DNA of 64,000 nucleotides, taken from assembly GCF_018141545.1 (NCBI RefSeq), contig NZ_CP064356.1:1749001-1813000 (forward strand). Reading direction: 5' to 3'. Every line of letters begins with the position of its first letter. The first letter of the stretch is position 1. This DNA is from Miltoncostaea oceani (GTDB taxonomy: Bacteria; Actinomycetota; Thermoleophilia; Miltoncostaeales; Miltoncostaeaceae). The position numbers and the translations under genes were made by a program. Below are positions 18,769 to 54,657 of this stretch, piece by piece. The notes below the pieces were generated by a model that was not told where the DNA came from, searched no databases, and worked only from the letters and a program-made list of their open reading frames with translations.

Positions 18769-19045
18769 GGCCGAATGGGCCTCGAGGTCGCGGCCGATTG
18801 GCCACCCCTCAGGGATGAGGTCCCGGTCAGACTGTCGACGTCCGATCGAACGTTGCGGTCGCCGCCAGGTGGACCACCCTCGGGCTCAGCCTCCGCCTGA
18901 GGCACCGACCGTCGAGTTAACCTCGACGCCGCGGCCACATCGCCACACGCTCCGCCGTGGCGGGCGGTGGCCGGAGGATCCGTTCCCTGCGGGGTTCCCC
19001 AGGAGGTGGCCGATTGGCCGGCGCACCGAGGTCCAATTGGACCTC
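18769..19045. repeat. cluster of CCRATYGG-type palindromes, copy A
   Basis: Four related short sites: GGCCGAATGGGCC (18769-18781), GGCCGATTGGCC (18792-18803 and 19008-19019) and the perfect 18-bp GAGGTCCAATTGGACCTC (19028-19045). A segment GATCCGTTC..GGGGTTCC (18977-18998) precedes the third site and recurs in the second cluster near 54000. They may be protein-binding sites or a dispersed intergenic repeat (inference). Confidence 0.55.
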
Positions 19046-49254: not shown

Positions 49255-50127
49255 ATGGAGCCGGAGGACATCTTCGGTGTGCGCGGACGCACGGCGGTGG
49301 TGACGGGGGCGTCGTCGGGCCTGGGCGTGGTGTTCGCACGGGCGCTCGCCGCGCGCGGGGCCAACGTGGTCCTGGCGGCGCGTCGCGTCGACCGCCTGCG
49401 GGAGGTGGCGGACGCCATCGCCGAGGACGGCGGCGCGGCGCTCGCGGTCGGGTGCGATGTCGCCGAGCACGAGCAGGTGGAGGGGCTGCTGGACGAGGCG
49501 ACGGCCCGGTTCGGACGGGTGGACGTCATGGTCAACAACGCCGGCACGGTCGGCGACGGCGGCCCGACGCCCGAGCGCCTGCCGCACGAACTCTTCGAGA
49601 ACACCATCAGGGTCAACCTGGTCGGCGTCTGGTACTGCTGCCGCGCCGCAGGGTCCCGGATGCTGGCCGACGGGAGGGGCGGGTCCATCATCAACGTGTC
49701 GTCCGTGCTCGGGACGGGCGGGCAGCAGAACTACCCACCCGCCTACCAGGCGTCGAAGGCGGGCGTCATCAACCTGACCCGCACCCTGGCGGTGAGCTGG
49801 GCCGACCGCGGCGTCCGCGTCAACGCGATCGCCCCGGGATGGTTCCCCAGCGAGATGACCGAGCCGTTCCTCGGCATGCCGCCGTTCCTGCAGTCGATCA
49901 TGGACCAGCAGCCGACCGGCCGGCTCGGCGATCCCGAGGAGCTCGTCGGGCCGCTCCTGTTCCTGGCGTCGGACGCATCGAGCTACGTGAGCGGGACGAC
50001 GCTCGTCGTCGATGGCGGCATGTCGGCGTCGTACGGGGCCGCGCGGCACCCCGCCGCCCTCGAGGACCTCTTCGCCGAGGTCATCCCGGACGGGCTGGGG
50101 CGCCGTATCACCGCCGAGGTGTCGTAG
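49255..50127 (+). CDS. short-chain dehydrogenase/reductase
   Basis: 290 aa classical [11 protein letters not shown] (NAD(P) loop), [19 protein letters not shown] (catalytic Ser) and [11 protein letters not shown] (Tyr-x3-Lys) are present, and [15 protein letters not shown] closes the site. Likely reduces or oxidises an alcohol or acyl group; substrate unknown. ATG 49255 has a strong GGAGGGAGG site. A long hairpin follows. Confidence 0.92.
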
Positions 50128-50138
50128 CGCCCGGGATC

Positions 50139-50175
50139 GGCGCCGGGTACTGACGGGTCGTCAGTGCCCGGCGCC
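50139..50175 (+). terminator. strong hairpin terminator before pyrG
   Basis: A 16-pair stem, GGCGCCGGGTACTGAC with GTCAGTGCCCGGCGCC, loop GGGTC, one G-T wobble; 11 nt after the SDR stop. Confidence 0.8.
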
Positions 50176-50195
50176 ATGCCCTCCGCCGGGGGCGC

Positions 50196-50201
50196 TAAGG
50201 T
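50196..50201 (+). promoter_or_regulatory. -10-like box of pyrG
   Basis: TAAGGT lies 32 nt before GTG 50234, which also has GGGAGGAC as ribosome site; a short leadered transcript is predicted. Confidence 0.45.
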
Positions 50202-50233
50202 GTGGTCCGTCCGCAGGGCGACGGGAGGACCAC

Positions 50234-51883
50234 GTGGTCGAGACGCCGGTGAAGTACGTGTTCGTGACCGGGGGAGTGGTCTCCGGACTCGGCAAGGGGA
50301 TCTCCGCCGCGTCGCTCGGGACGCTGCTGAAGGCCCGCGGGGTGCGGGTGTCGCTCCAGAAGTGCGACCCCTACCTGAACGTGGATCCGGGCACGATGAG
50401 CCCGTTCCAGCACGGCGAGGTCTTCGTCACCGAGGACGGCGCCGAGACCGACCTCGACCTCGGCCACTACGAGCGGTTCACCGACGAGATGCTGTCGCGC
50501 ATCTCGAACGTCACGACCGGCGCCGTCTACGACCAGGTCATCAAGAAGGAGCGCCGCGGCGACTTCCTCGGCGCGACGATCCAGGTGATCCCGCACGTCA
50601 CCGACGAGATCAAGGCCCGCATCCGCCAGGCGGCGGCGTCGAGCAACGCCGAGGTCGTGATCATCGAGATCGGCGGCACCGTCGGCGACATCGAGTCGCT
50701 GCCGTTCCTCGAGGCGATCCGGCAGTTCCGCAACGACGTCGGCCGCGAGCACGTCTGCTTCGTCCACGTCACCCTGGTCCCGTACCTCGACGCCTCCGGC
50801 GAGCTGAAGAGCAAGACGACGCAGCACTCCGTCAACGAGCTGCGGCGCATCGGCATCGAGCCCGACGTCCTGGTGCTCCGGTCGAACCGGCCGATCACGG
50901 ACGACATCCGCCAGAAGATCGCCCTCTACGGCGGCATCCCGACGCAGGCCGTCATCTCCGCGGTGGACGCGGGCGACATCTACGAGGTGCCGCTCAACCT
51001 GGAGGCCGAGGGCTTCGCCCGGGTCGTCTGCCAGCGGCTCGGCCGTCCCGCCCCCCCGCCGGACCTCACGGACTGGCGCGCCCTGGTCGAGCGCATCCAC
51101 GCGTGCGAGGGCAAGGTCCGCATCGCCCTCGTCGGCAAGTACGTCCAGCTGCACGACGCCTACCTGTCGGTCGCGGAGGCGTTGAAGCACGCCGCGATCC
51201 ACCATGGCATCGAGCTGGAGATCGACTGGGTCGACGCCGAGGCGCCCGACCTGGAGGCCCTGCTGCTGCAGGCCGACGGCATCCTCGTGCCGGGCGGCTT
51301 CGGCGGCCGCGGCATCGAGGGCAAGATCACGGCGACGCGGTTCGCGCGGGAGGGCCGGGTGCCGTTCCTCGGCATCTGCCTCGGGATGCAGATCGCGGTC
51401 ATCGAGTACGCCCGCCACGTGTGCGCGATGGACGGCGCCAACTCGAGCGAGTTCGACCCGGAGACGCCCTACCCGGTCATCGACCTGCTCCCCGAGCAGC
51501 GGGCGATCGAGGAGCGCGGCGGCACGATGCGGCTCGGCGCCGACCCCGTGCACCTCGCCGAGGGCACCCGCGCGCGGGCCGCGTACGGCGACCAGGCCGT
51601 CATCTACGAGCGCCACCGCCACCGCTACGAGGTGAACCCCTCGATGCGCGACGAGATCGAGCGCGCCGGCCTCGTCATGAGCGGCCGGTCGCCGAACGGG
51701 CGCCTCGTCGAGGTGGTCGAGCTGCCCGACCACCCGTGGTTCTGCGCCTCCCAGTTCCACCCCGAGTTCAAGAGCCGGCCCACCCGGCCGCAGCCGCTGT
51801 TCCGCGAGTTCGTGGGCGCCGCCGCCGAGCGCGCCCGCGTGCGCCCGGACGCCGCGCGCGAGCGCGCCCCGCTCGGCGGGTGA
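50234..51883 (+). CDS. pyrG: CTP synthase
   Basis: 549 aa. The synthetase domain begins [20 protein letters not shown] and holds [19 protein letters not shown]; the glutamine amidotransferase domain (from about 290) has LGICLGMQ with the catalytic Cys and QFHPEF with the His. It aminates UTP to CTP. GTG 50234 follows a GGGAGGAC site. The next gene overlaps the stop (GTGA). Confidence 0.97.
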
Positions 51884-53016: not shown

Positions 53017-53558
53017 GCGGCGGGGAGGAGCTGGGCCCGCCGATCCGCACGGAGCGGATCCACGACGGGGTGATCGTGAACCTGCGGTCGTCCGACTACC
53101 GGCGTCCCGACGGCACCGTCGTCACCCGCGAGGTGATGGACCACCCGGGGGCGGTCGTGATGGTCCCCGTCGAGGGCGACCACGTCCTGCTGGTGCGCCA
53201 GCCGCGGGAGGCGGTGGAGCGGTTCACCCTGGAGCTGCCGGCGGGGAAGCTCGACCACCCCGGTGAGGAGCCGCTGGAGTGCGCGAAGCGGGAACTCGCG
53301 GAGGAGGTCGGCCGGGAGGCCGCCGTCTGGCGCGACGTCGGGGGCTTCTTCACGGCGCCGGCGATCCTCACCGAGTTCATCCACTGCTTCATCGCGACCG
53401 ACCTCAGCCCCGTCGACGGCGTCAGCGCCGACGAGGACGAGATGATCGAGGTCGTCACGTGGCCCCTCGACGACCTCGGCACCCTCATCGACCGGGTGGA
53501 GGACGCGAAGACGCTGATCGGCCTGCTGCGCCTGGAGCGGGAGCTGCGCGCGCGGTGA
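53013..53558 (+). CDS. NUDIX hydrolase, ADP-ribose pyrophosphatase type
   Basis: 181 aa. The Nudix box is GKLDHPGEEPLECAKREL followed by AEEVG, and LELPAGKLD just before it is typical of ADP-ribose pyrophosphatases. It likely hydrolyses ADP-ribose or a similar nucleoside diphosphate derivative with Mg2+. Coupled on both sides through GTGA overlaps. Confidence 0.92.
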   Translation: MSGGEELGPPIRTERIHDGVIVNLRSSDYRRPDGTVVTREVMDHPGAVVMVPVEGDHVLLVRQPREAVERFTLELPAGKLDHPGEEPLECAKRELAEEVGREAAVWRDVGGFFTAPAILTEFIHCFIATDLSPVDGVSADEDEMIEVVTWPLDDLGTLIDRVEDAKTLIGLLRLERELRAR

Positions 53559-53917
53559 GGCCTCGGGCGCCGCGTGATCGCATCGATGCGATCTGCGCCG
53601 CGCTGCCCGGGGTCACGGCCGAGGAGGCGGGCCGGCACGTCCGGTACGTCGTCCGCGGCCGCACCGTCGCCTGGTTCATGGACGACCACCACGGCGACGG
53701 CCGGGTCTCCCTCTGCGTGAAGGCGGGGCCCGGGGGCGCCGAGGCGATGGTCGCCGCCGACCCGGACCACCGGTGGGTCCCGGCCTACATCGGACGTCAC
53801 GGCTGGGTCGCGTGCGCCCTCGACCTCCCGGACGTCGACTGGGTCGACATCGCGGAGCTCGTGACGGACTCGTACCGGATCATCGCCCCGGCGCGGCTCG
53901 TCTCGCTCCTCCCCTGA
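53555..53917 (+). CDS. MmcQ/YjbR family protein
   Basis: 120 aa double-wing DNA-binding-like fold. LPGVTAEEAGRHVRYVVRGRTVAWF, SLCVKAGPGGAEAMVAADPD and WVDIAELVTDSYRIIAP match the YjbR pattern. Function of the family is not established. GTG overlaps the NUDIX stop; last gene of the pyrG operon. Confidence 0.82.
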   Translation: MRPRAPRDRIDAICAALPGVTAEEAGRHVRYVVRGRTVAWFMDDHHGDGRVSLCVKAGPGGAEAMVAADPDHRWVPAYIGRHGWVACALDLPDVDWVDIAELVTDSYRIIAPARLVSLLP

Positions 53918-54228
53918 GGGGGGCGGGCCCGCTCCGGCCCCCCGTCCGGGGTCGGGTCCGATCGGACCACGGCGCGAGGTCCATTCGGCCGCCCCGCGAG
54001 ATCCCGTTCGCCAGGCGGGTTCCGGGCTATGCGCCAATTGGCGCACCACGCGAGCGTCGATCGACACCCGGCGGAGAGGGACGGCGGCGGGCCGTCGATG
54101 AGCCGTCGGGGACCCCCTGGGTGGAGGTCTCGCCGGGGCCAGGATGCGCCAATTGGCGCACGGCGTGAGCGCCAATTGGCGCACCCACCCCGGACCGGGG
54201 GGACCCGGCCCGGGATGGAGGGGGAGGC
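53918..54228. other. 311-bp intergenic region with perfect palindromes
   Basis: No plausible gene. It lies between the pyrG operon and the converging osmC-like gene and contains the second cluster of CCAATTGG-type palindromes, given separately. Confidence 0.6.
53955..54182. repeat. cluster of CCRATYGG-type palindromes, copy B
   Basis: GGTCCGATCGGACC (53955-53968, perfect), GGTCCATTCGGCC (53978-53990), TGCGCCAATTGGCGCA (54030-54045 and 54145-54160, perfect 16-mers) and GCGCCAATTGGCGC (54169-54182). The segment GATCCCGTTC..GGCGGGTTCC (54000-54023) also occurs in the cluster near 18977. The AATT cores are striking in this composition. Possible repressor or nucleoid-protein sites, or a dispersed repeat (inference). 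Confidence 0.6.
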
Positions 54229-54657
54229 TCAGCCCTCGAGCGTCGCCTTCACCGTGAACTCCGGCACGCCGGCGAGGGCGCGGCTGACGATGCAGCCGGT
54301 CTTCGTGTCCTCGGCGAACTTCTCGAACGTCGCCTGGTCGATCCCCGGCACCTTGCCGACGGTCTTCAGGTCGATCTTCGTGATCGAGGTGGCGTCGTCG
54401 ATCTTGCCGATCGAGACGACCGCCTCGGTGCGGACCGACTCCGGCACGTTCCCCTGCTGCGAGAGCGCGTTGGAGATCGCCATCGAGAAGCACGACGCGA
54501 GCGCCGCGCCGATCAGCTGCTCGGGGTTCGCCCCGGGACCGTCCTCGAACCGGGTGTGGAACGAGAACTCCCCGGCGATGCCGCTGTCGCCGGCCTGGAA
54601 CGTCCCACTGCCGCCCTTCAGGTCGCCCTTCCACTCCGCGTTGCCTCTCGCTGCCAT
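54229..54657 (-). CDS. OsmC/Ohr family peroxide-detoxifying protein
   Basis: 142 aa. The two catalytic cysteines are in AALASCFSM and DTKTGCIVSRAL, with the FEDGPGANPEQLI helix start between strands, as in OsmC. It reduces organic hydroperoxides with thiols. ATG 54657 has AGGAGG on the minus strand 6 nt upstream. Divergent from the helicase gene. Confidence 0.93.
   Translation of the reverse strand: MAARGNAEWKGDLKGGSGTFQAGDSGIAGEFSFHTRFEDGPGANPEQLIGAALASCFSMAISNALSQQGNVPESVRTEAVVSIGKIDDATSITKIDLKTVGKVPGIDQATFEKFAEDTKTGCIVSRALAGVPEFTVKATLEG

Follow-up and report, generated by a model that had tools for sequence, protein, structure and literature searches.

Within a short intergenic stretch of the Miltoncostaea oceani chromosome lie several AATT-centred palindromes, which raises the question of what such sequences are doing there: whether they are a repeat family or the binding sites of a protein and, if the latter, to what end. 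The DNA analyzed here (the window) is a stretch of 64,000 nucleotides, C1:1,749,001-1,813,000 of a 3,679,875-bp contig; positions without the contig prefix are those of the window.

Two-Box Elements between Convergent Genes

The two 16-bp copies and one 14-bp core reported in the preliminary description fall inside 153 bp, exactly where they had been placed, and the two variants upstream are also present, although one of these, CCATTCGG, is an imperfect palindrome (Table 1). That such a cluster is improbable by chance is borne out by counting: CCAATTGG has four occurrences in the window where 0.08 would be expected, a number reached in none of 100 shuffles, and the 14-mer with up to two mismatches occurs three times against 0.54 expected (2 of 100 shuffles reach three). 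One lone CCAATTGG, with core TCCAATTGGA, resides at 19033-19040, outside any two-box element.

A feature that had been overlooked is the spacing. A distance of exactly 23 bp separates the second copy from the third, and likewise one variant from the other. All three palindromes prove to be boxes belonging to a two-box element, of which the window contains two well-scoring examples. The variants constitute a putative further element, possibly decayed, that is matched by neither of the models R1 and R2. The sites are flanked by a YjbR-family gene on the plus strand and an OsmC-family gene on the minus strand, both directed towards them, and thus lie between convergent genes. The tie to the pyrG operon is incidental.

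Table 1. Palindromes, two-box elements and neighboring genes (window positions unless prefixed C1)
Feature	Position	Strand	Description
TGCGCCAATTGGCGCA, 16 bp	54030-54045 and 54145-54160		Perfect palindrome, two copies
14-bp core	54169-54182		Within AGCGCCAATTGGCGCA at 54168-54183
Best-scoring element	54145..54183		Boxes 54146-54159 and 54169-54182, each a perfect GCGCCAATTGGCGC, centers 23 bp apart; R1 38.5 bits, E 4.4e-9 (whole genome); matrix score 49.0, top of the 64 kb
Second element	54028..54069		Perfect box 54031-54044 and, 23 bp on, degenerate partner (GTCGATCGAC core, 54056-54065); R1 35.6 bits, E 3.6e-8 (whole genome); matrix score 38.9, second best of the window
Possible weak third box	54008..54021		Precedes 54031 by 23 bp; the pair register from 54004 scores 8.7; below threshold in the whole-genome model search
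Degenerate, possibly decayed element	53955..53991		CCGATCGG (53958) and CCATTCGG (53981); matrix score -10.2, best of the window after registers 54142, 54027 and 54004
YjbR-family gene (PF04237)	53555..53917	+	Left of the sites; start taken from the gene call; ORF 53279-53917, YjbR stretch at residues 108-200
OsmC-family gene (PF02566)	54229..54657	-	Right of the sites
ORF with pyrG (CTP synthase)	50012..51883	+	Domain match from residue 81
Weak candidate binder, 187 aa	C1:1,926,661-1,927,224		Adjoins a site; orthologue in G003 adjoins an array

Anatomy of the Element

The element consists of two GCGCC-AATT-GGCGC palindromes placed exactly 23 bp center to center around an unconserved spacer. 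Its consensus, GCGCCAATTGGCGC followed by nine unconserved bases and a second GCGCCAATTGGCGC, was drawn from 45 aligned pairs of five genomes (A2, 45 of 59 pairs, overlapping array members being omitted and loci L105 and L118 providing no pair); a separate alignment, A1, comprises 14 hand-chosen sites. When up to three mismatches are allowed, the terminus region of M. oceani (G000) contains nine pairs of boxes at 23 bp and a single pair at either of 60 bp and 64 bp; in that of its congener G003 there are 26 pairs at 23 bp, with every other spacing represented by at most eight; 23 bp is the sharply favored spacing in the terminus of both single-contig chromosomes. Several sites in the congeners G001 and G002 are composed of two perfect boxes, and in G002 and G003 there are three to five boxes in a row at 23-bp steps. 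Also present in G003 are tandem arrays with units of ~60 bp (C1:1825579-1825975) and ~48 bp (C1:1585706-1585958), which suggests local amplification of sites.

Spacer and flanks vary freely, and no conserved sequence is found outside the two boxes. The arms within a box vary independently of one another, the observed percentage paired being reached in 497 of 500 shuffles, and pairing between boxes displays a weak excess (15 of 500 shuffles reach its covariation score). The absence of hairpin-like covariation in the box arms favors a protein that reads duplex DNA.

Confinement to the Replication Terminus

Three exact copies of the 16-mer are present in the genome, two in the window and the third 123 kb away at C1:1,926,580. 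With at most one mismatch to the 14-mer there are 12 places, 10 of which lie in a 163-kb stretch opposite the origin (C1:1,803,031-1,966,033), and with at most two mismatches this stretch holds 19 of 42. The genome-wide count named in the preliminary description as a refuting test would by itself have overlooked what matters: the 42 places do not exceed the 56 of the reversed-pattern control, and plain enrichment was rejected as a measure, but the position of the places is extraordinary, and it is their distribution alone that is special.

The same picture emerges from model R1, which detects 18 places at E<0.02, all within C1:1,803,028-1,953,606, or 151 kb of the 3.68-Mb chromosome. Outside this interval the best match in the whole genome has an E of 0.11, which is chance level, and the other contigs contain no match at E below 0.1. 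The places form 11 clusters, for which the chance of so small an arc is 1e-13. R1 was trained on terminus sites of this genome and is to that extent circular; the independent evidence is provided by the model-free counts and by the congeners in which R1 found sites. In addition, among palindromic 10-mers GCCAATTGGC shows the strongest over-representation in the terminus of G000 as well as of G003, with 10 occurrences in each versus none in 200 kb of far stretches.

The location of the origin can be read from dnaA (C1:1,125), parB (C1:3,674,215, opposite strand) and, among the stretches read, parS-like sites with one to three mismatches (C1:3,676,294 and 3,676,338; in G003, 3,366,792 and 3,366,820). 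From these positions oriC is at the two ends of the contig and its antipode at ~1.841 Mb, so that the site cluster lies opposite the origin. Besides the ordinary ParB, the genome encodes four long ParB-domain proteins of 583-691 aa (C1:637490, C1:218213, C1:3182021 and C2:764977).

The coding strand, mostly plus up to ~1.95-1.97 Mb, switches there to mostly minus. A comparison of non-coding DNA between G000 and G003 revealed an identical 24-bp sequence, CGCACGGGAACTGATGTTATGTCG, at C1:1951591-1951614 and C1:1589957-1589980, respectively, with a TTATGTC arm, a word that is unique in both regions read. This sequence, which lies at the coding-strand switch, is the putative dif of the genus, an assignment made from its conservation and the TTATGTC arm only; a search with the E. 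coli, B. subtilis and Streptomyces consensus sequences yielded nothing convincing as dif. The cluster in G000 is one-sided about this putative dif, reaching 150 kb on one side and ending 2 kb past it, beside the coding-strand switch, with the edge at 1,803 kb closer to the antipode than to dif. Beside the terminus sites there is also a conserved inverted repeat, TTTACAC...GTGTAAA (G000 C1:1954273-1954315, G003 near C1:1584191-1584231), which is flanked by a small serine-recombinase gene on one side and a highly conserved gene on the other.

Conservation of Places in a Congener

G003 belongs to the same genus and is assembled as one contig of 3,370,274 bp, with dnaA at 1,171. It contains at least 112 matches (E<=0.05) at no fewer than 60 places, numbers that are lower bounds from 150 scored candidates. 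All matches listed fall within 983,120-2,385,610, and none of them is in the origin-proximal 58% of the chromosome. Among these matches the places form 26 clusters, and the chance of an arc this small is 8e-9. Their circular mean (1,599,842) is ~10 kb from the putative dif (1,589,968), and two single sites reside 0.6-0.8 Mb from it.

The terminus regions of the two chromosomes are syntenic in inverted orientation, sharing 271 collinear ortholog pairs, and the median protein identity over all 289 pairs is 76%. This permits a comparison of places, for which the 18 places of G000 were merged to 14 and the 58 of 60 G003 places in the 800 kb from 1.2 to 2.0 Mb were used. For eight of the 14, a G003 site is located no more than 500 bp from the orthologous position, where 0.67 are expected (6 of 5000 shifts of the G003 sites reach eight). 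The window's place is without a counterpart, the nearest G003 site being 3.8 kb off, upstream of pyrG and thus at its other end; G001 and G002 also carry a site upstream of pyrG. Some places have thus been retained and others shifted, without leaving the region.

Sites are predominantly intergenic in both chromosomes (14 of 18 places in G000 and 54 of 58 in G003, where only ~11-12% of the DNA is non-coding). Eight of the 14 intergenic sites in G000, including the window copies, lie between convergent genes, but only nine of 54 do so in G003, so that no rule of orientation holds generally. Contrary to the intergenic preference, sites also lie inside an orthologous called gene of both genomes (G000 C1:1906533, G003 C1:1641643-1641758). 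The genes that flank sites have unrelated functions.

Taxonomic Range

Nine of 300 genomes of the class contain a match at E<=1e-4, and more than four matches are found only in the four members of the genus (G000-G003) and in one further genome of the family, G007. Among 41 relatives and the 300 class genomes, strong site sets are likewise limited to these five; between two and four matches apiece are found in G010 and in G181, G195 and G237, three members of another family. Of the 15 loci that bear sites in the drafts G001 and G002, 10 have genes matching (>50% identity) the terminus stretches of G000 or G003, L111 matches them partially, and L102, L105, L107 and L113 have no such genes. L105, in G002, looks like a false match. 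The one mappable locus of G007, L117, corresponds to 1.02 Mb of G003. In G038, from another family, a comparison of 200 kb near the antipode with 200 kb on the origin side detected no comparable palindrome. A report of a terminus-specific motif in Actinomycetota was not found in the open literature, PMC7188993, PMC6549158, PMC8242196 and PMC4889656 included.

Comparison with Known Site Systems

The closest parallel is matS, a 13-mer with the consensus GTGACRNYGTCAC. In both cases, many short palindromic sites are confined around dif, opposite oriC. According to PMC7188993, MatP and matS organize the Ter macrodomain of Enterobacteriaceae and Vibrionaceae. The present elements occur in a different phylum and differ in box sequence, the 45-site consensus GCGCCAATTGGCGC-N9-GCGCCAATTGGCGC being distinct from the matS 13-mer, and in having two boxes at a fixed 23 bp. 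MatP itself (PF06303) is not matched at E<=1 anywhere in the window's genome, in a search where the E. coli control scored over the cut-off.

In Caulobacter, the MerR-type protein ZapT acts with the partners ZapA and ZauP, and resembles the present case in offering terminus-biased places of DNA binding (here presumed) in a bacterium without MatP. PMC7188993 describes 10 ChIP peaks for ZapT, mostly in ORFs and with no consensus motif, whereas the sites described here have a strong motif and are mostly intergenic. Like parS, they are palindromes clustered on one part of the chromosome, but their sequence is another and they are situated opposite oriC, which has parS-like sites of its own in G000 and G003.

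Alternative Explanations

REP and BIME elements, which are linked with the RAYT transposase, are dispersed over the genome. The main rival is a repeat of this or of a minisatellite-like kind that spreads in the terminus, or is best tolerated there, without having a function; we consider it unlikely. Such a repeat would share with the present elements their form as short palindromes between genes and, as in the arrays of G003, a capacity to multiply locally. REP-like dispersal, however, is not what is observed: copies are lacking from the origin half of either chromosome (in G003, among the matches listed) and from the other contigs of G000 (E<0.1), and neither conserved flanks nor the covariation of a folded hairpin accompany the boxes. 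The strongest opponents of this explanation are the retention of orthologous places at the protein divergence noted above and the freedom of spacer and flanks, nothing being conserved beyond the two boxes. Slightly less probable still is some other terminus or segregation device, such as a fork barrier without polarity, another centromere-like site, or sites that keep out a division inhibitor or an SMC complex. The same positional data would suit it, and the 23-bp box arrays of G003 and G002 could load many molecules. Tus/ter and RTP/ter also have their sites around the terminus, but according to PMC6549158 the sites of these known fork traps are non-palindromic and polar, whereas the boxes here are symmetric and matched on both strands; moreover, parS-like sites of the ordinary kind are already present near oriC.

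Operators of an ordinary dimeric transcription factor, with a regulon that lies near the terminus by accident, would also appear as palindromic boxes in intergenic DNA, and some sites do precede genes (for example, those at G000 C1:1,894,333-1,894,546, in front of a gene at C1:1,894,613). We regard this as improbable: a regulon would not keep to one arc, the flanking genes are functionally unrelated, the majority of intergenic sites in G000 lie between convergent genes, and several places shift between species, that of the window being empty in G003. Least credible of all, and very improbable, are RNA hairpins or intrinsic transcription terminators. Several sites are at gene ends, and both the boxes and the box pairs are inverted repeats, but pairing within a box does not exceed that of shuffles and between boxes the signal is weak, no U-run follows the window copies, and terminators would be expected genome-wide.

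A Putative Terminus-Marking System

The near-exclusive location in the terminus, together with the presence in congeners, indicates that the elements are probably docking sites for a putative protein that marks or folds this region. The elements are best read as a site system of the matS type, unrelated to MatP, that marks the terminus of replication in Miltoncostaeaceae (Thermoleophilia) and in which both the binding protein and the function are presumed. The preliminary description, which had suggested either a repeat family or sites bound by a dimeric protein, was correct in direction, as evidenced by the fixed two-box geometry, the mostly intergenic siting, the orthologous conservation and the duplex palindromes without hairpin covariation, although the binding protein is putative. 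That the window copies are the outermost of these terminus-marking sites, each with two boxes read by a putative sequence-specific protein, seems to us rather likely. Counting against it are the one-sided cluster of G000, the two outlying single sites of G003 and the narrow taxonomic range. With somewhat less assurance, but still on the favorable side, it is proposed that a putative actinobacterial protein reads the 23-bp-phased double palindromes only around dif, forming a terminus domain unrelated to MatP.

In such a scheme, a DNA-binding protein would recognize the two-box sites, and the 23-bp spacing, about 2-2.2 helical turns, could seat two dimers (or one tetramer) side by side. By analogy with MatP/matS, the resulting nucleoprotein sites may bridge or mark Ter, and thereby serve compaction, sister cohesion up to the time of division, or a connection with the division machinery. 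Conceivably, the bound protein could bridge sites, exclude loop-extruding complexes, or tie Ter to the division ring, as PMC7188993 and PMC8242196 would suggest for MatP/matS.

A doubtful candidate for the binder is a 187-aa protein encoded next to a site (Table 1). It appears HTH-like and coiled-coil by eye, has no Pfam match, and its sole PDB match, an engineered protein (E 0.0019), is uninformative; for its homologue in L128, an all-helical structure is predicted at low confidence (mean pLDDT 71, pTM 0.34). Relatives are encoded in all five genomes of the sampled family with strong sites (E<1e-4; G000-G003 and G007) and also in four of 20 others, one of these four having an internal stop. 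L128, a MAG locus with the same neighborhood around the 187-aa gene, contains no site above chance. The co-occurrence of protein and sites may reflect shared ancestry only.

The DNA half of a putative terminus-marking system outside the enteric bacteria and Caulobacter is thus readable from sequence, with a precise geometry, and the protein half is approachable with a 40-bp bait; Miltoncostaea is culturable. If the proposal is true, these bacteria would possess a motif-defined system of terminus-organizing sites outside the MatP-bearing groups.
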